Below, in pieces: positions 21,075 through 29,760 of a stretch of DNA of 64,000 nt. The notes under the pieces are model-generated. The model did no database searches and was not told the DNA's origin. It worked only from the letters and a program-made list of their open reading frames with translations. How positions within the stretch are numbered: position 1 is the first letter of the stretch; the number at the start of each line of letters is the position of its first letter. The position numbers were made by a program, and so were the translations under genes. The stretch is from an uncultured Opitutia bacterium (GTDB lineage: Bacteria > Verrucomicrobiota > Verrucomicrobiia > Opitutales > UBA953): positions 62,001 to 126,000 of the forward strand of contig CAIMFJ010000007.1 in NCBI GenBank assembly GCA_903840355.1, in the 5' to 3' direction.

Positions 21075-21719
21075 TCAAGCCGATTGAGGTAGGGTCTTTG
21101 AATGGGTCATAAACCAAAAGAAAACTACCCAGATGGTAATCCCAAGGGAAGCTAGGAAGTAGACGAGCTTTTCCTGCCCTTGGCGAATTTCTGTCAGGCC
21201 CGCATCATCGAGGAGTTTGCCTAATTTACGCACGAAATAAATCGGCAACAAGCCGCCTACCAACGTGGTAAAGCAAAGCAGTACGAACTGGGAGAGCGGT
21301 GGGGTTTCTGGGATAAAGGTCGTCCACTCATGAAGCTTCACCCAAAGCCATACCAAGAGGGCGAGCACGGGTGGCATGAGGAAAGTGGCGCCACACCAAA
21401 AATAACCTTGGAGCACAAAACGCTCGAGGGCTTCGGCGTTGGCGTTGCGCGGCTCTTTGTTTCCTGCGGTGAGGTTGGTGTTATTACTCGCCCCTGGAGG
21501 AGGTGGTGGGTTGTCCGAGGTGTAGCCTGCATGAACTGGCGAGGGGTTGATGCCGGTCGCGCGGAAGTAATCGCGCAGCGTTTGCCAGCGACCTTCGACT
21601 TCAATGTTGTGTAGCAAACTGATTTCGCCTGCCTGCAACATTTCGCTGATGCGGCTGAGCGAGTACGGGCCTGAGACCGAGCCTTTCCAGCGTAAACGGT
21701 ATTGAGAGGTTTGGCTCAT
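21075..21719 (-). CDS. GYF_2-domain membrane protein, last gene of GTPase operon
   Basis: The 214-residue protein opens with a GYF_2-like domain (residues 6-52: YRLRWKGSVSGPYSLSRI, then GRWQTLRDYF). A proline- and asparagine-rich linker (residues 58-90, including PPPPPG) follows. Three membrane helices then appear at about 106-130, 144-163 and 185-206. GYF-type domains bind proline-rich sequences, so the domain may recognise its own linker or the proline-rich linker after the membrane helix of the GAP1-N2-like protein encoded two genes upstream (APAPAPTPVVVKIPTPPP). The gene starts 3 bases after the coiled-coil gene stop, so it belongs to the operon. Function is unknown; a membrane adaptor role is inference. 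Confidence 0.6.
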   Translation of the reverse strand: MSQTSQYRLRWKGSVSGPYSLSRISEMLQAGEISLLHNIEVEGRWQTLRDYFRATGINPSPVHAGYTSDNPPPPPGASNNTNLTAGNKEPRNANAEALERFVLQGYFWCGATFLMPPVLALLVWLWVKLHEWTTFIPETPPLSQFVLLCFTTLVGGLLPIYFVRKLGKLLDDAGLTEIRQGQEKLVYFLASLGITIWVVFFWFMTHSKTLPQSA

Positions 21720-21722
21720 GTT

Positions 21723-24671
21723 TTACAGGTCGCGACCTTGCAGGAGCGATTCCCAGCCGCCTTCAGGGGGAATGAGATTAGTAGGCACGGTGGCGGCTTT
21801 GACCGCCTCCTCGACTGAGCCAGGGTAGCGCAGTAAGGGCGTGAAGGGGGCGGCTTCTGCCACGCGGGTGGGCGTGCCATCGAGACCGATGCGGAAGAGC
21901 ACCGTGGCGCGGCCTTCGGTGTCGAGTCCGTAGAGCGTCGTGTTGAGTACTTTGTCGCGGAGGTTGGGTTTGCCGTTTTGGCCGACCATGCCGGCGAAGA
22001 TCAATTTATGGGAACGCAGGGTGACGAAGACGCTACGCCAGAAGCGAGCTTCATCGGCGTAGTTTGTGGCGGTGTTGCGATTGAGGTAACTCTTCAGTTC
22101 GCCCTGAATGTCCGCCCATTTATCTTTGAAGAGAAAATCGTAGCCCCCCATGGAGTTTTGTGTGATGCGACGCAATTCCTCAGCGTCGCGTTGGGCCGAG
22201 GGTGAGTAGATGATGCCCGAGATTTCGGGGCGCAAACTCGCCACCTTGAAGAGTTCTTGTAAGTGGTAGGCGCGGATTTCGAGGTTAGGGGAGGGGTTAC
22301 GACGAACCCGATCGAGCGTGCGTAAGATGGGCTCATTGAGCTTGCCGGTTTTGACATCGTAGAAACGCCCGAATTGACGCAGGTATTCCATTTCGGGAAT
22401 CAAGACGCCTTCTTGCAGGTCTTCGCCCGACTTGGCGCCGTTGGTAAATTCCCGACGACTCCAAGTGCTTTCCAAGACAATCCCTTCGCGGGTTAATTCT
22501 TTGCCTTTCAGGACGTATTCGAGGCCGTCGGTGATGACGTGCTTATCCAGCGTGATTTCACCTACAATGTAAGCAGAGCGGGTGATGGTGACCCCTTGGT
22601 TGGAGTATTGGCGCACGTTGAATTTGCGCAACGAGCGGGCCACGGCGTCATCGGAAAGTTGGCGTAGGATTTTACTTTCACCTTCGAGTAAAGTCTCCGG
22701 GGTGAAGTTGGCATTCAGGTCAAGGGAAGTTGTGGCATCCCACATCGCACCGACGCGAGGGGCCAAGATTGCACGTGGGAGTTTAGCTAAGGTCTCGGCC
22801 TTTTCTAAAATAATGCCGGCACGTTTCGATAATTCAGACTTCTCGTTCGAACTCGCTTTGGCGTTCAGAAGGGCATCGAGGTAGGATTTTAAATCCGCCG
22901 CGTCCGTGAGGGTTTTCAAGGAAGTGGCTACTTTGCGTTCATCGCGTAAGCGTTCTTCGGCCCGGTCTACTTCGGCGTCGGCGGCATCGAGATCTTTAAT
23001 GCCTGCCTTGCGGAGGTTAGAGAGCAGTTGACGCAAGTGATCCACGGCCTCGACCGCTTGCACAGGGTTGGTTACATTTTCTTCATCACCGAGAGATTTT
23101 TTAAGACTCGCCCGGTCCTCCGTGAGTTCGGCTTGGGCCTGTTCGCTGATGCGTTCGCACGTGGCTTTGAGGGCACTGGGGTCGGCGAGTATGGCCTCAA
23201 GGCGTTTCTGGGCGGCGGCTCCGACCTTTTCGATTTCTTCTAAGTAAGCGTTCACGCGCGGAGCGGTGACAGCGAAGTTATTGAGCGAGACGCCTTCGTG
23301 GCGGCGGGTTTCAAGGTAGATGGCTTCCGCGCGGAGTTTTTGTTCGATCGCTTCTTGTTTGCTAATGGTATCGCGGAGTTTCTTTTCCTCTTCTACCATG
23401 CTGGGTTCACTCGCGAGGGTGGGGTTTTTACTCTTATACTCTTCGAGTGCCTTGAGCGCTTCAGCGTTACGCCAAGCACTCGCTAATTCGTGGGCTGACA
23501 CGAAGCGTTCTTCAGCTTCGTTGGTTAATTTATTTTTATAATGCCACCAGCCGAAGCCGGCGAGAACGCAGAGGAGCCCGATGACCCATGCGGTGACTAA
23601 CACGGAGTAGCGTTGGCTAAGGCGGGTCCGGGTGATTTGGCTTAGGGAGCGAGCCTCCTTTAGCATGCCTTCGGGCAAACGATCTTCAAAGGGGGTGGCC
23701 CGTTCAATCCACTGTTTTAAACGAGCGATGAGAATGGCAGGCGATTTAAGTTTAGCGGATTCTTGGCGCAGTTTATTCCATTCATCAATCAGCGCTTGGG
23801 TATTAGAGCGTAGCGTTGCTTCCTTTTCCGCTTCGGCGGCTAATTCTCCGGCCCAGGCCTCTAGGTCGCTCAGTTGTTGATTTAAGTCGGCAGGCAGGGT
23901 GACTTGGTGGTCTCGTTCGAGAGCCCGGGCACGGCCGATGAAGCTCGCACTCGCTTCCCAGTGTTGACCACTCCGAGCTTCTTGGGCTTCGGCGATGTGC
24001 TGTCGAATTTGTTCGAGGGCTTTAGCGCGCAACCAAGTCTGCCGTTTGCCGAGGGCTTCGTTCCAGCGCTCATCTTCCGTGAGAGTATTGGCACCGAAAC
24101 GCTCCATGCGATCCATGAGGTGCACGGCTTCTTCGGGCTGATTCGCCACGAAGAGTTGATTCACTTTGCCTAAGGACTCGCGTAAAAACTTAGCCGACAG
24201 TCGGGTCAGTTCTGCCCGGGCATTAGGGTCGTCGGGGTTGATGCGAACAATGGAACGCAAAACGGACAGTGCACGATCTTCATCGCGCGTACGAATGGCA
24301 TCACGGTAATCGCGATAGAGCGGGTGATTTTCGCCGATGGCTTTACCGTAGAGACCCTCGACGGCGATGACATGTTGACTGTCGAGGGGAAGTCCAGGAG
24401 GGAGGCCACGTTCGCGGCAAAGGGCGTTCCAGCGTTCCGATTCTGCGAAACTCAGGTGGGCGCAAAGCCCGAGCAGGTCGGGGTCAGATTCGGCGACTTC
24501 AAAGGCGGCATGGTCGTTGCCACTGCGAATGAGGGCGACGCATTGTTCGAGCCGTTCGCGCGTGCGAAGGCAAAGAGCGGCGTATTCGCTGGCGAGGGAG
24601 CGAGCCTCTAGGTCCGGGGTATTGAGGTCGAGTTGGCCGCGGATACGCGCGATGAGTCGTTCAATCTGCAT
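21723..24671 (-). CDS. Large coiled-coil membrane protein of GTPase operon
   Basis: I choose the ATG at 24671 (982 residues, MQIERLIARIRGQ), 5 bases after the preceding stop; a frame opening at 24740 would overlap that gene. Residues 1-340 are helical and TPR-like (for example EDRALSVLRSIVRINPDDPNARAEL). One membrane helix is at about 355-377 (SVLVTAWVIGLLCVLAGFGWW). Residues 380-660 are long charged helices consistent with coiled coil. The C-terminal 300 residues form a mixed domain without a motif I know. The topology is probably cytoplasmic N-terminal helices and an extracytoplasmic coiled coil and C-terminal domain. I do not recognise a named family; the context links it to the GTPase and GAP1-N2-like proteins. 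Confidence 0.6.
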   Translation of the reverse strand: MQIERLIARIRGQLDLNTPDLEARSLASEYAALCLRTRERLEQCVALIRSGNDHAAFEVAESDPDLLGLCAHLSFAESERWNALCRERGLPPGLPLDSQHVIAVEGLYGKAIGENHPLYRDYRDAIRTRDEDRALSVLRSIVRINPDDPNARAELTRLSAKFLRESLGKVNQLFVANQPEEAVHLMDRMERFGANTLTEDERWNEALGKRQTWLRAKALEQIRQHIAEAQEARSGQHWEASASFIGRARALERDHQVTLPADLNQQLSDLEAWAGELAAEAEKEATLRSNTQALIDEWNKLRQESAKLKSPAILIARLKQWIERATPFEDRLPEGMLKEARSLSQITRTRLSQRYSVLVTAWVIGLLCVLAGFGWWHYKNKLTNEAEERFVSAHELASAWRNAEALKALEEYKSKNPTLASEPSMVEEEKKLRDTISKQEAIEQKLRAEAIYLETRRHEGVSLNNFAVTAPRVNAYLEEIEKVGAAAQKRLEAILADPSALKATCERISEQAQAELTEDRASLKKSLGDEENVTNPVQAVEAVDHLRQLLSNLRKAGIKDLDAADAEVDRAEERLRDERKVATSLKTLTDAADLKSYLDALLNAKASSNEKSELSKRAGIILEKAETLAKLPRAILAPRVGAMWDATTSLDLNANFTPETLLEGESKILRQLSDDAVARSLRKFNVRQYSNQGVTITRSAYIVGEITLDKHVITDGLEYVLKGKELTREGIVLESTWSRREFTNGAKSGEDLQEGVLIPEMEYLRQFGRFYDVKTGKLNEPILRTLDRVRRNPSPNLEIRAYHLQELFKVASLRPEISGIIYSPSAQRDAEELRRITQNSMGGYDFLFKDKWADIQGELKSYLNRNTATNYADEARFWRSVFVTLRSHKLIFAGMVGQNGKPNLRDKVLNTTLYGLDTEGRATVLFRIGLDGTPTRVAEAAPFTPLLRYPGSVEEAVKAATVPTNLIPPEGGWESLLQGRDL

Positions 24672-24676
24672 GGGTA

Positions 24677-26821
24677 TTAGCGAAACTCTAAAAGGCTGAG
24701 GATGACATCCCCTTTGGGGTCGACCGTTTGGAGGCTCCAAGGTGCGCCTGCTTTAACGTTATCGCCAGCTGTGAGGGCTTCCCGGCGGGCCATGATAATG
24801 CTATTCGAAGGCGTGCCGGGGCCGAATTTGCGTTCCAGACGGATGATGTCGGTTTCGAGTACCGAACGGGTGGCACGGATTGAAGGTAAGTCGCGATCGG
24901 GGAACTCGTGACCTTCGGGGTAGAGTCCGGGGATGGCGTTGACGATGATGAAGCAGTTCACGACTGGTTCGGCCCAGGGGGCGGCATGGACGACACCCGT
25001 GGAACTCTCGCATTGCAGTGCACCGAGCGTGAGGTTGAGCGGTTTAAGATTTTTCAGGTCAGCAAGCAGGGCGATGGCAAAGCGTTCGCCTGACGCCAGT
25101 TGAATTTCTAAAAGACGATTACTGGTTTTTAACTGCGTGGCCGTGTTGTCTTTGAAGTTGAGGGCAATCGAGCTATTGCGCGTCCCTACGCCAATGACGA
25201 TGGCAGGGAGACGCCCTGGCTCAGGGAAACTTTCAATCCAGTTGGATTGGGCACCGCGCCGAATTTCGCCGCGAATAAAGGGCGTAGCCGTGTCACGTTG
25301 ATGAAAAGACGTTAGGTTTAATAAACGCAACCGCGCATCGATAGATTTGGCCGAAGTAGCGCCCGTGGATTGGATGTATTGATTTAACCGTTCCGCCGCG
25401 TTGGGGTTTAGTTTGAATTCAGCGGACGAAGGTGACGAAGCACCCATATCGGCGGTGACCCATTCACCGATGAGAACGAGGGTGGGGCGAAGGTCGAGGG
25501 AGGCGACCAGTTGGGCGCGATCGGTGATCTCGGTGAGACGTTTCCAGCCTTCATCTTGGGTTACACCGAGTTTTTCGCCGACGCTGATAGCTTCTAGCGC
25601 TTCCTTGGCGATTTCTTGGGCAATTTTAGGGTCGGCCGTAGCTCCAGGGATTTCGAGTCGGGCTAGCAATTGTTGGGCCGTGGCGGCGGCGTATTTAGAT
25701 TTAATCCGCGGCAGGTGTTGGTCGCTGTATTTACGCGAGAACTCTGGGGAAATTTGGCAGGTTTGCATCCATAACTTTGCCGCCATCACATAATCATCAC
25801 GCGCAAGGTAGCTCGCTACATCGTTCAAGGCACGATTCGCTCGAATGATTTCATCGGCTTTCGCGGTGTCGATCGGAGGAGGCGTTGGAATCTTAACCAC
25901 GACCGGTGTCGGTGCGGGGGCGGGGGCGTGGAAATAGCGCCATCCTAACCAACTAGCGAGAGCCACGAAGAACAGGGTGAGACTGATCGTGAGGGCGTAA
26001 TTCGATTTAGCCTCGCGGGGTGCCGGTGCGTCAGAATTTTTTTCGACGTTCGTTCGCTTGGGGGCTGCCGTGTTATTGCTGCTCGTGACGCCCATTGCTG
26101 CTTGGCGGGCAAAATCTCCGCTGGGAGCGGGCAGGTTGGCGGCTTGGGAAAAATCGATTTCGACCCGACCGCTTACGGGACCAATCGACCACGCAAAACT
26201 TTCGGCCCCCGTGATCGTAGCATCCGTGGTGAACGTTGCTGACCAAGCGGCCTTCGTTAGCAAGGCGGCCGATTCCGCAAAGAGTCGCAGCACTTGGGCT
26301 GTTTCTGGAGCATGCGTCAGCGTGACCGTTCGCGCACTCGAGTTTTCTACTAACCAAGCCGCTTTCGAGCCGGTGCCCGTCAGTTCGCGCCAAGCCATCG
26401 CAGGGATGAGCGGGGTGGGCGGGGCGAGGGGCAAGGGTTTATCTTCGCCTTCGAGCCAAGTAGGCGTTTCGGACCATTCATCACGCCAGCCTTTCCAGCG
26501 CAGGGCGAAGGAAGCAGACGGGGGGAGGACCATCGCCTCTTCTTGCGTGAACGCTAAGTGATGGGCTAAGCGATTGTCGCGTTGCGTGTAGTCGAGTCCG
26601 CGAGCGACGAAGCGTGAGAGCACATACCAGGTTTTGCCTGAGGCTTCGAGGGTGCGGAACGTGAAGGTCTCACCCGTGGGTTGATGGTGAGGGGTGCCGA
26701 TGGCTTCGAGGAGTTGAGCCAAGCGATCGGGCATCGCGCGATGACGTGCCACCGTGCAAAAGCCCGAGCGGCCAGCGACGAGGCCTTGGGGGGCGGAGGT
26801 GAAAATTAATTGCAGCGGCAT
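24677..26821 (-). CDS. GAP1-N2-like GTPase-associated membrane protein
   Basis: The N-terminal 230 residues match what I remember of the GAP1-N2 (GTPase-associated protein 1, N-terminal type 2) domain: the opening IFTSAPQGLVAGRSGFCTVARH, then WYVLSRFVARGLDYTQRDNRLAHHLAF. A low-complexity stretch (about 240-272) leads to one membrane helix at 275-296, followed by a proline-rich linker (APAPAPTPVVVKIPTPPP) and a large helical then beta domain (residues 315-714). GAP1 proteins are known from comparative genomics as partners of TRAFAC-like GTPases, and such a GTPase is encoded immediately upstream, 20 bases away. Whether the protein stimulates GTP hydrolysis is unproven. The family call rests on pattern memory and should be tested by a profile search. 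Confidence 0.7.
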   Translation of the reverse strand: MPLQLIFTSAPQGLVAGRSGFCTVARHRAMPDRLAQLLEAIGTPHHQPTGETFTFRTLEASGKTWYVLSRFVARGLDYTQRDNRLAHHLAFTQEEAMVLPPSASFALRWKGWRDEWSETPTWLEGEDKPLPLAPPTPLIPAMAWRELTGTGSKAAWLVENSSARTVTLTHAPETAQVLRLFAESAALLTKAAWSATFTTDATITGAESFAWSIGPVSGRVEIDFSQAANLPAPSGDFARQAAMGVTSSNNTAAPKRTNVEKNSDAPAPREAKSNYALTISLTLFFVALASWLGWRYFHAPAPAPTPVVVKIPTPPPIDTAKADEIIRANRALNDVASYLARDDYVMAAKLWMQTCQISPEFSRKYSDQHLPRIKSKYAAATAQQLLARLEIPGATADPKIAQEIAKEALEAISVGEKLGVTQDEGWKRLTEITDRAQLVASLDLRPTLVLIGEWVTADMGASSPSSAEFKLNPNAAERLNQYIQSTGATSAKSIDARLRLLNLTSFHQRDTATPFIRGEIRRGAQSNWIESFPEPGRLPAIVIGVGTRNSSIALNFKDNTATQLKTSNRLLEIQLASGERFAIALLADLKNLKPLNLTLGALQCESSTGVVHAAPWAEPVVNCFIIVNAIPGLYPEGHEFPDRDLPSIRATRSVLETDIIRLERKFGPGTPSNSIIMARREALTAGDNVKAGAPWSLQTVDPKGDVILSLLEFR

Positions 26822-26841
26822 GAAAAGGGTGTCGTTAAAAA

Positions 26842-28560
26842 TTACTTACAGGGAAAAAGTTCCGGCGACGAGAGGTGCAGAATCCAGTAGACGGGTTCTT
26901 CCACGTGGGCCGGCGCCAGTCGTTGCGGGTCGGGAGCAATACGGCCTTTGTTGGCACCGCTTTGAATCATCACGGGCGTGTGTCCAAAGGACGTCACGGC
27001 AAAGTAGCAGATTTGACTAGCCAGGCTTTCGGCGGCGGCGACTAAGCCGGGGCAGAGGTTGACTAAGACCGTGCGTACGCGATCGGAGTTGCGTTGGATG
27101 GCGGCGAGGTCGAGTTTGCCGTCGCTCAGGATTGACTCGAGTGGCGAGGGGAGAAGTCCTGACCAAGTATCGCATTTGCCCACGACGAAGGCCAGTGGCG
27201 TGGCGATGCGTTCTTCGCGCGACAAGCCCATGACGCGTTTGATGCGCGTTTCCATTTCCGCGAGGATGCTGTCTTGTTGGTCAATTCGACCCTTCAAGGA
27301 CAGTTGGGGGTCTTCGACGCCGATGAGTTTAGATTTAAAGCGGGTGTTAGCGGTGGGGTCGAAGAGGAAGATTAAACCCGCTGAGTTGGCCACATGCATC
27401 GCTCCGGGCGAGTCGTGAATATCAATGCCAGGTTCGAAGTGTTCTCCGGCGTTGTCGTAAAGAATGATTGAAGTCTCGCGGCGGGGTTGGTCCGCTCGGC
27501 TGAGCGAGTAGATGAACGGACGCGGCAGCGAAACCATGCGACCTAAACGAGGCAGCTTTTCATACGTGGCTCCTTCCAAAGCAGTTTTGCCCAGCAAGGC
27601 GTCCTCGGGGGTCATTGCCGAGAACAACGTGTTGCGCATTTGATTGAGCAAGATGTTGCCGCTGGGGTCGCCGTCTTTGAAGGCGACGTTAAAGTTTTCG
27701 GGAAGCTTTTCCTGCAGCTCGTGGGTGAGGACCGCTAAGTAGTAAGACTTGCCTGAGCTCGGGGCGCCGATGAGCGACATGATGCGGTGCGGCATGTCGA
27801 GAAAGCCCGGGGGTAATTGGCGGCGGCAGTGCGGGCAGGCGATATCGGTGCAAGCCAAGCCCATCGGATCGAGGGCCAGCCCTTGATCATTGAAGCGGGT
27901 GGGGTGGAAGCGCAGGCGGGCATCGGAGCCGAGTACGGGATCGCCGCGTAAATCTTCATGCACGGCGATACTCAGGGCATCGCCCGCATCAAAACGCGTC
28001 CAGCAAACTGGGCAAAGGTGAGCGCCGCGATTTTGTTCGGCGGCGAGTATGGCGGTGTTAGGCCGCGGACTCACTTCGGTATGCGTGGTGAATAAAGGAG
28101 CCACTTGGCTGAGCGTGAAACCCACTTCCAGTCCTTGAGGTGTGCAAGCGAGCGTGTTGGGAGCGCGGCCCAACTCACGAGCTTTGTCGAGTAGTTGTTC
28201 GGGAGCGAATTCCCCTAAAAGATCTCCGGTGGCTGCGTCGAAGAGGGCCCACGTCTTAGGCTGGATAGCCGGCAGGCTTTCGTTGCCAGAATTTGAGCAG
28301 ACGCAGAGCAAGGTCTCGTCGAACTGCAAGGTAGCCATCTCGCGCAACGTCACCCCTTTGCGCAGCGGGGCACCGTTGAACAGAACCAGTTGGGCGTGAA
28401 GGGGGGTGAAAACCAGCCCATGGTCCGTTTGGCTGATTTCTAGGTAGGGTTTAGGGCTCCCCAGGGGGAGAAGGGTCGGAAACCGGTCGGTGGAGCCCTG
28501 AACGCCGTCAAGGCAGTTAACCCACTGTAGGGTAGGGCTTTTCTTATTCAACGTGAGCAT
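26842..28560 (-). CDS. Zinc-ribbon TRAFAC-like GTPase, first gene of operon
   Basis: The 572-residue protein carries a GTPase domain from about residue 258. The P-loop is GAPSSGKS (265-272), the DxxG-type switch II is YDNAGE (368-373) and the base-recognition motif is GKCD (461-464), a variant of NKxD. Upstream of it sits a split zinc ribbon with cysteines 183/186 and 242/245. The first 90 residues are beta-rich and loosely FHA-like (LVLFNGAPLRKGVTL). No membrane helix is present. The layout fits the GTPases that accompany GAP1 proteins in bacterial multi-gene systems, related to the so-called double-GTPase families, though only one GTPase domain is seen here. It heads an operon of four genes and has a recognisable promoter at 28604-28633. 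Confidence 0.75.
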   Translation of the reverse strand: MLTLNKKSPTLQWVNCLDGVQGSTDRFPTLLPLGSPKPYLEISQTDHGLVFTPLHAQLVLFNGAPLRKGVTLREMATLQFDETLLCVCSNSGNESLPAIQPKTWALFDAATGDLLGEFAPEQLLDKARELGRAPNTLACTPQGLEVGFTLSQVAPLFTTHTEVSPRPNTAILAAEQNRGAHLCPVCWTRFDAGDALSIAVHEDLRGDPVLGSDARLRFHPTRFNDQGLALDPMGLACTDIACPHCRRQLPPGFLDMPHRIMSLIGAPSSGKSYYLAVLTHELQEKLPENFNVAFKDGDPSGNILLNQMRNTLFSAMTPEDALLGKTALEGATYEKLPRLGRMVSLPRPFIYSLSRADQPRRETSIILYDNAGEHFEPGIDIHDSPGAMHVANSAGLIFLFDPTANTRFKSKLIGVEDPQLSLKGRIDQQDSILAEMETRIKRVMGLSREERIATPLAFVVGKCDTWSGLLPSPLESILSDGKLDLAAIQRNSDRVRTVLVNLCPGLVAAAESLASQICYFAVTSFGHTPVMIQSGANKGRIAPDPQRLAPAHVEEPVYWILHLSSPELFPCK

Positions 28561-28599
28561 GGTTTCCGAAAAGGGAGGGGGAGGGGTAAAAGAGAACAG

Positions 28600-28627
28600 T
28601 TGAATTCTATTGATATGTCAGTAGCAT
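28600..28627 (+). promoter_or_regulatory. Possible promoter of ECF sigma gene
   Basis: TTGAAT (28600-28605) and TAGCAT (28622-28627) are spaced by 16 bases, 4 of 6 matches each. The same bases carry the minus-strand promoter. An ECF-type AAC...GTC pair (GAACAG with GTC 17 bases later) also lies here and could be an autoregulated promoter. Both are weak readings. Confidence 0.3.
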
Positions 28628-28633
28628 TGTCAG
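28604..28633 (-). promoter_or_regulatory. Promoter of GTPase operon
   Basis: On the minus strand CTGACA (28633-28628) and TAGAAT (28609-28604) are separated by 18 bases; each matches the housekeeping consensus at 5 of 6 positions. Transcription would start about 35 bases before the GTPase ATG. It overlaps a plus-strand promoter candidate for the sigma gene. Confidence 0.5.
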
Positions 28634-28663
28634 TTAATTCCCCGTCAAAATCCACCCCTAACT

Positions 28664-29254
28664 ATGGAAACTGAAGCCGACCAGATTGCCCTGGACCGAG
28701 CCCGTAAAGGGGACTTGTCGGCTTATAACGAGTTGGTGCTGCGTTATCAGGGTCGGATTTTTGCTAAGGTATTCTCCCTGTTGCGTAACCGTCAGGACGC
28801 CGAGGAAATCACGCAAGACACCTTCATCCGGGCCCACCGTGTTTTAGCTTCCTTCCGCGGAACGGCGACTTTTTCGACCTGGATTCACCAAATTGGCACG
28901 AATTTAGCCCGTAATCGTTACTGGTACTGGCGTCGCCGGAAGCGCGATCAATCCATGTCACTCGACGCTGACCTCGGCGAAGATCCTGGTTCTACCCTGC
29001 ATGATATCCTCTCGGATGGCAATCAGGGGCCTGGTCACGAGGCGCAGCATAACGAATTTGTGAAGAAAGTGGCCGAGTGCATGGAACAATTGAAGCCCGA
29101 GCATGCTCGTATTCTTACCATGCGCAACGTGCGTAACATGTCCTACGAAGAAATCGCTGAAGAGCTAGGGCTGTCGATTGGTACGGTGAAAAGCCGCATT
29201 AACCGGGCTCGGGAGGCCTTGCGTGACTTGATGGGAGAGGAGTTCCGCGAATGA
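28664..29254 (+). CDS. ECF RNA polymerase sigma factor
   Basis: The 196-residue protein has the two-domain ECF layout. Region 2 covers about residues 10-80 (YNELVLRYQGRIFAKVFSLLRN, then AEEITQDTFIRAHRVL, then FSTWIHQIGTNLARNRY) and region 4 covers 135-190 (LTMRNVRNMSYEEIAEELGLSIGTVKSRINRAREAL). It directs polymerase to its own promoter set, often in response to envelope stress. The next gene overlaps its stop by 4 bases and looks like an anti-sigma factor. It diverges from the GTPase operon across 103 bases, which raises the possibility that it controls that operon. It is of the RpoE/SigW type but I cannot assign a subgroup. Confidence 0.92.
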   Translation: METEADQIALDRARKGDLSAYNELVLRYQGRIFAKVFSLLRNRQDAEEITQDTFIRAHRVLASFRGTATFSTWIHQIGTNLARNRYWYWRRRKRDQSMSLDADLGEDPGSTLHDILSDGNQGPGHEAQHNEFVKKVAECMEQLKPEHARILTMRNVRNMSYEEIAEELGLSIGTVKSRINRAREALRDLMGEEFRE

Positions 29255-29760
29255 GTAATTCCGAATTCGAGATGCTCGTCGTGAGTTACTTGGATGGCAC
29301 GGCCACCAAGGACCAAGTGATTCGTTTGCGTAATGCGATTAAGTCCTCGGAGGACATGCAGCGTCGCTTTCATGCTCGGGTACGTTTGTACCAAGCCCAA
29401 GTCGCCTTTTTAAGTCAGCGCCAAGAGAAGTCCCCTTCGTGGGTTATGGCATGCTTAAGTCGTTTCGCCCAACGTTTTGGCCGCCCCCTAGCTCACCTTT
29501 GTCTTTTAGCCTTAGTCTTTGTGGAGTTACGGGTGAGCATTCCTGCGGAGTATTCTGGTTGGCTTTTCTACGTGGAAGATATCGTCGAAGAGCAAGAAAC
29601 CAACTTCGAGGACATGCCCGTGAAGTTCATGATTTCAGAGGTCGTTAACAGTGAATTGGACCTACCCACGAACGACATGCCCGATGCGATGGGGATGCCT
29701 AATGTGGTGATGCCTGAGGTGGTTTCGCCTGTGGATGAAACCCTCGTTAACGAGGCTTAA
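29251..29760 (+). CDS. Probable anti-sigma membrane protein
   Basis: The 169-residue protein starts at the ATGA overlap with the sigma gene. Its N-terminal 55 residues (FEMLVVSYLDGTATKDQVIRLRNAIKSSEDMQRRF) resemble the helical start of FecR/anti-sigma regulators in PVC and Bacteroidetes genomes, which lack the zinc-binding HxxxCxxC motif. One membrane segment is at about 80-98 (PLAHLCLLALVFVELRVSI). The remaining 70 residues are acidic and methionine- and proline-rich, and would lie outside the cytoplasm. The protein is shorter than FecR and lacks its periplasmic signalling domain. Its role as the sigma partner is inferred from position and architecture. Confidence 0.6.
   Translation: MSNSEFEMLVVSYLDGTATKDQVIRLRNAIKSSEDMQRRFHARVRLYQAQVAFLSQRQEKSPSWVMACLSRFAQRFGRPLAHLCLLALVFVELRVSIPAEYSGWLFYVEDIVEEQETNFEDMPVKFMISEVVNSELDLPTNDMPDAMGMPNVVMPEVVSPVDETLVNEA

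Follow-up and report, generated by a model that had tools for sequence, protein, structure and literature searches.

A conserved GTPase and GAP1-N2 operon in an uncultured Opitutia bacterium, and a putative motor module in its relatives

The DO-GTPase/GAP1-N2 class of bacterial systems was defined by Kaur, Burroughs, Iyer and Aravind (2020; PMC7159879), who include systems with GYF partners in planctomycetes. DO-GTPase/GAP1 systems have so far been proposed as conflict systems from genomics alone. Here we describe a four-gene operon, P0001 to P0004, from an uncultured Opitutia bacterium of the phylum Verrucomicrobiota. It lies in a 64,000-nucleotide stretch of contig CAIMFJ010000007.1 (positions 62,001 to 126,000, forward strand), hereafter the window. 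The operon is a real, conserved, variant form of the known class. On balance, we think that it encodes a GTP-switched, trans-envelope complex of the inner membrane, serving envelope maintenance or stress rather than conflict.

The operon and its products

The four co-directional genes are on the minus strand and are separated by intergenic gaps of 20, 5 and 3 bases; these gaps agree with those of a first-pass annotation, which had proposed a membrane GTPase operon from the DNA letters. The main features are as follows.

26842..28560, minus strand: P0001, a DO-GTPase-like protein of 572 amino acids, with an N-terminal beta domain, a split zinc ribbon and a G domain
28285..28536, minus strand: P0001 residues 9-92, a beta-rich N-terminal domain, FHA-like by predicted fold (Foldseek)
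27826..28014, minus strand: split zinc ribbon CPVC ... CPHC, P0001 residues 183-245; the four Cys are invariant in 20 orthologues
27745..27768, minus strand: P-loop GAPSSGKS, P0001 residues 265-272, found in all orthologues of alignment A1
24677..26821, minus strand: P0002, a GAP1-N2 protein of 714 amino acids with one transmembrane helix (PF20013 match)
26453..26812, minus strand: GAP1-N2 domain, P0002 residues 4-123 (Pfam match coordinates)
25934..25996, minus strand: transmembrane helix of P0002, residues ~276-296 (hydropathy and charge); a Pro-rich linker is next, on the presumed periplasmic side
21723..24671, minus strand: P0003 (P3), a helical protein of 982 amino acids from ATG with one transmembrane helix (orthologues and AlphaFold2 model)
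23532..23600, minus strand: transmembrane helix of P0003, residues ~358-380 (Lys plus Arg 6.9 before, 3.2 after)
21075..21719, minus strand: P0004, 214 amino acids, with a GYF_2-like N-terminus and three transmembrane helices (homologues match GYF_2)

P0001 had been annotated as a TRAFAC-like GTPase with a split zinc ribbon. The P-loop G265APSSGKS272, DNAGE (369-373), GKCD (461-464) and zinc-ribbon Cys 183, 186, 242 and 245 are all found. These motifs are invariant in 20 orthologues with two exceptions: one P-loop Ser is frequently replaced by Ala, and some orthologues have Ser for the Cys of GKCD. Nearly all relatives in the phylum keep the P-loop. The conserved Glu of Walker B lies in D369-N-A-G-E373, which is invariant in A1; most phylum relatives have DNAGE or a close form. 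A fold search with the P0001 model matches the G domains of atlastin, GBP and G-alpha (E ~5e-5), and the homologous GTPase of survey locus L118 scores 27.4 bits against Pfam DO-GTPase2 (PF19993), above the cut-off. A PDB sequence search with the GTPase profile gave no useful match.

Further candidates were considered in P0001. Foldseek matches the N-terminus to the FHA domain of Ki67 (probability 1.00, TM-score 0.60 on target, E 1.9e-3); profile comparison with true FHA domains of relatives failed to confirm this identity. A GYF-like second subdomain at residues 97-165 is unsupported (hhalign probability 14%). Between the zinc ribbon and the P-loop, LPPG[YF] (residues 249-253; 27802-27816) shows no variation across the family alignment and resembles a GYF ligand. 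Binding of GYF to PPG[YF] (residues 250-253) is treated as a lead only; the motif also occurs in L075, L076, L087 and L088, yet these are 4 of 73 survey GTPases.

P0002 matches Pfam GAP1-N2 (PF20013) at 1.4e-16 and 61.2 bits, with a cut-off of 24; 19/19 orthologues also match this family. A simple hydropathy scan finds one transmembrane helix, as annotated. The positive charge around this helix shows a modest bias (Lys plus Arg 3.1 before, 1.9 after, over 19 sequences). GAP1-M (PF20014) was not found in the window's genome or in P0002 orthologue set A2; it matches relative L118 at 40 bits. No useful match came from a PDB sequence search with the GAP1 profile.

The single membrane helix claimed for P0003 is recovered by hydropathy scan in most relatives and by the charge pattern. 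The fall in Lys plus Arg across the helix indicates that the N-terminus is inside. The AlphaFold2 model contains helices at 2-359 and 387-646, a beta domain at 681-752 and a beta part at 911-940; this corresponds to a helical cytosolic part, a transmembrane zone, and then a helical and beta periplasmic part. Fold search of P0003 found no match at E < 0.001, only helical-repeat likeness, and Pfam found nothing above cut-off.

P0004 has three transmembrane helices by hydropathy scan, starting near residues 109, 145 and 185, so this part of its annotation as a three-helix GYF_2 protein stands. Pfam finds no GYF domain above cut-off on P0004 itself, and the assignment comes from its homologues. 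GYF matches are weak in L079 (3.6e-4) and L158 (1.6e-3) and strong in a GYF-PrsW homologue, L101 (3.8e-11).

The proline-rich linker of P0002, APAPAPTPVVVKIPTPPP, had been suggested as the ligand of the GYF_2 domain. In P0004, the GYF-like part precedes the first transmembrane helix and the loop between the second and third helices holds five Lys or Arg; the GYF part should therefore be cytosolic. The GAP1-N2 domain should also be inside, since it serves a soluble GTPase. The linker is C-terminal to the transmembrane helix that follows this domain and should therefore be periplasmic. The contact is unlikely because the two partners are expected on opposite faces of the membrane; the linker is also poorly conserved among orthologues.

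No nuclease or toxin domain is visible in the four products, in agreement with the first-pass annotation. They have no significant match among PADLOC profiles and nothing of weight among NCBIfam profiles, and no FNIII-repeat component was matched by Pfam.

Conservation and selection

A search with P0001 found 29 Opitutae contigs. Every contig of sufficient length has the quartet in the same order, which rules out a chance array. Orthologue identities within Opitutae are ~67-74, 50-60, 48-58 and 39-54% for P0001 to P0004, respectively. Wherever the examined Opitutae contigs reach, the locus is fixed between rsfS/nadD and a divergent gene for an extracytoplasmic function (ECF) sigma factor, which is followed by a gene for a protein with one transmembrane helix.

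The GTPase profile matches 67 of 79 genomes in the window's family; four of the 67, all in genus g2, contain N-terminal stretches only. Outside g2, the GTPase is present in 26 of the 28 family genomes that are at least 90% complete, and a full GTPase is found in 0/8 such g2 genomes. In g2 the system looks dismantled: the N-domain of P0001 occurs alone (L072:6592-7062), and a short GAP1-N2 protein lies on another contig (L071:6912-8381). At L029:1-876, the GTPase match is broken into several pieces, probably by frameshifts through assembly errors.

The ratio of nonsynonymous to synonymous substitution rates (dN/dS) was determined for four close pairs. The GTPase has values of 0.048-0.064, the GAP1 protein 0.072-0.155, P3 0.035-0.086 and P4 0.132-0.232; in the periplasmic regions of the GAP1 protein and P3, the ratio is at most ~0.11. 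The quartet is a near-core, single-copy locus under purifying selection in the window's family.

Loci across the phylum were searched with profiles grown from the window's family, on six-frame stop-to-stop translations. GAP1-N2 is found in 71 of the 388 genomes sampled. Among the survey loci, some of which were included for other matches and some cut by contig ends, a strong GAP1 match is present in 76, and GTPase, GAP1 and P3 occur together in 61 (script count). In 60 of the 61, this trio is encoded on a single strand and runs GTPase-GAP1-P3. Outside the window's family, the full quartet recurs in two loci from other families of the order (L079 and L083) and in L087/L088 from another order of the class. 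Gene order is thus kept beyond close relatives, which the first-pass annotation had named as a point that could fail. The same annotation did not know the four-gene set as a described system. The published GYF partner in planctomycetes (PMC7159879) takes away part of this novelty, and the quartet is the shorter version of a set that has more genes in relatives.

Partner modules in relatives and the divergent neighbour

The gene set is longer in many relatives, where a MotA/ExbB-family channel protein and two proteins with one transmembrane helix each are encoded next. Pfam MotA_ExbB (PF01618; cut-off 22.9) matches the adjoining channel genes at 39.7 bits in L079, 38.6 bits in L087 and 46 bits in L106. 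The channels form a subfamily (profile A4); the phylum search gives 36 matches of at least 366 bits, with the next at 230. These 36 matches are in 34 genomes, 32 of which carry GAP1-N2 (hypergeometric P 1e-24, a value that treats related genomes as more independent than they are). A GAP1-N2 match lies at most 11 kb away on the same contig for 29 of the 36. The other seven are directly after P3 and GYF (G002, G132, G329, G338 and G386) or at contig edges (G247 and G344). A PDB profile search with the channel subfamily found no match. The A4 matches of 230 bits or less belong to a second MotA/ExbB-related group, with frames of ~440-570 amino acids, in genomes mostly without GAP1-N2.

The two partners after the channel are distinguished by FQDI before the transmembrane helix (A6) and by LLDTMCN (A5); each has a conserved Asp. 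At the start of the helices, D18 is invariant and D15 nearly so.

The genome of the window has five MotA_ExbB genes. None belongs to the channel subfamily, and their likeness to the L079 and L087 channels is local and weak. The A4 profile finds nothing in this genome at 1e-10, and the D2 partner profile finds a coiled-coil stretch only. A quick GTPase tree of 75 rows places channel-bearing rows to either side of its deepest split and requires four changes for them; L079, L136, L087 and L088 are within the window's half.

A literature search, with most subscription papers outside its scope, found nothing linking DO-GTPase/GAP1-N2 systems to such motors. The main text of Kaur 2020 (PMC7159879) does not mention MotA, ExbB, TolQ or ExbD. 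To our knowledge, the motor module has not been described for this class.

Relatives also carry other modules. L110, L118, L124, L126, L137, L138 and L140 have a gene for a PilM-like protein after the trio (PF11104, 28.1 bits against a cut-off of 27); contigs that extend far enough also encode two one-helix proteins that are PilO/PilP-like by layout only. This clade is one group in the GTPase tree. In addition, GYF_2 is fused to PrsW-type intramembrane proteases beside the set (L079:11577-12800 and L101:330-1721).

The features upstream of P0001 in the window are as follows.

28561..28663: divergent intergenic region of 103 bases with the conserved core CTGACAT...TTCAAC (intergenic alignment)
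28664..29254, plus strand: ECF sigma factor, divergent neighbour and possible regulator (Sigma70_r2 and r4_2 matches)
29251..29760, plus strand: one-helix membrane protein after the sigma gene, anti-sigma-like by position (no Pfam match)

The right edge originally drawn for the operon, 28633, is 73 bases upstream of the P0001 ATG and falls within the intergenic region. The sigma gene occupies this divergent position in the Opitutae contigs that extend so far and also in L075, mostly at 82-96% identity; in L083 the identity is 47%. Its follower is conserved with it and evolves fast (35-56% identity). An ECF promoter motif was sought by eye in 28561-28663; none was established.

Proposed function and comparison with known systems

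The first-pass annotation proposed that the products form an inner-membrane complex, which we regard as probable. In the proposed mechanism, soluble P0001 would bind two cytosolic domains, the GAP1-N2 domain of P0002 and the helical domain of P0003. Both membrane proteins would span the bilayer a single time and pass the nucleotide state on to their large periplasmic domains, and P0004 would contribute a GYF-type adaptor, held in the cytosol by three membrane helices. In many relatives the core shares a gene cluster with the channel and two one-helix proteins, so an ion-driven motor is probably gated or recruited by the GTPase in these genomes. The window's lineage may have lost the motor module and kept the switch and scaffold. 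This leads to a broader proposal, for which we find the case evenly balanced: that in an as yet undescribed class of trans-envelope machines in Verrucomicrobiota, a DO-GTPase, a GAP1-N2 protein and a bitopic scaffold of ~1000 residues control a dedicated, ion-driven MotA/ExbB-type motor with two different one-helix partners, the window operon being a motor-less, near-core derivative.

A conflict role, in which an invader would be sensed by the complex and a membrane effector set off, was proposed for the class by Kaur 2020 (PMC7159879) and had been raised for this operon by the first-pass annotation. The channel genes of relatives do score against PADLOC ZorA profiles, weakly (best 2.3e-8, 30.9 bits); these scores span the MotA/ExbB core alone and would therefore fit any member of the superfamily. 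The operon itself has neither a significant PADLOC match nor an effector domain. Its fixed site amid housekeeping genes, its near-core, single-copy presence and its low dN/dS (0.035-0.23 across all four proteins, periplasmic parts included) are unlike a variable conflict locus. Defence therefore finds no support in the window's lineage, and we regard it as quite improbable. A GTP-dependent assembly or secretion platform like PilM-PilN-PilO, with the channel as one of several interchangeable modules, would account for the clade in which PilM-like genes follow the trio. This is unlikely, given that no pilus genes adjoin the window operon, that the motor module is the commoner of the two among the sampled loci, and that the PilO/PilP likeness is confined to layout.

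The complex could instead be a one-way signalling device, informing the divergent ECF sigma factor of the state of the envelope and doing no mechanical work. Both the sigma gene and its follower keep their divergent position within the family and, at lower identity, in L083, and the intergenic core is conserved. PrsW cleaves an anti-sigma factor in Bacillus, and the GYF-PrsW fusions of relatives would suit such a pathway. In the wider survey, however, the sigma neighbour is beside the GTPase in L075 and L083 only, and no recognised promoter motif is demonstrated. We give signalling as the sole function little credence.

Several points weigh against a GTP-switched envelope complex and its proposed link to a motor. 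P0001 itself scores 23.8 bits against PF19993, under the cut-off of 27, and its structure model is of modest confidence (predicted local distance difference test score, pLDDT, 61.8). The same applies to the P0003 model (pLDDT 70.3, predicted TM-score 0.36). Pfam and PDB searches place the one-helix partners in no family beyond coiled coil and match neither ExbD nor MotB; 'ExbD/MotB-like' therefore rests on position, size and the membrane-proximal Asp. Loss of the motor module in the window's family would be the simplest reading of the GTPase tree, whose root is uncertain; several gains may have occurred instead. The proposed role in the envelope is drawn from topology, gene neighbours and the presence of the sigma gene.

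A lineage that keeps the set near-core, at a fixed site and under purifying selection, together with a wider group in which it is wired to an ion-channel motor module, would shift part of the class toward envelope mechanics. The MotA/ExbB motors would also gain a GTPase-controlled member, and the dependence of the gene set on its GTPase is directly testable.

Known systems resemble the locus to different extents. Zorya shares a MotA/ExbB-type membrane part beside cytosolic NTPase genes, in relatives only; however, Zorya effector genes are absent, ZorA scores are weak, and the locus is not in a defence-island setting in the window's family. PilM-PilN-PilO is similar in one clade only, where the trio precedes PilM-like and one-helix proteins; this module is not beside the window operon, and the trio proteins have no PilM, PilN or PilO match. 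The relatives' channel passes the MotA_ExbB cut-off and is adjoined by two one-pass proteins with a membrane-proximal Asp, as in ExbB-ExbD, TolQ-TolR, MotA-MotB and ZorA-ZorB. Unlike these, the relatives have a separate channel subfamily with two different one-helix partners, tied to GTPase, GAP1 and P3; the window operon has no motor genes.

The operon is most like the DO-GTPase/GAP1-N2 systems of Kaur 2020 (PMC7159879). Firstly, it has a GAP1-N2 gene downstream of a zinc-ribbon GTPase gene and a Glu in the Walker B region. Secondly, it has a transmembrane segment in the GAP1 protein and a GYF membrane partner. In contrast to those systems, it has no recognised FNIII component and no GAP1-M match in P0002. 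Its constant third part is a helical protein of ~1000 residues with one transmembrane helix, to which relatives add the channel and its two partners.

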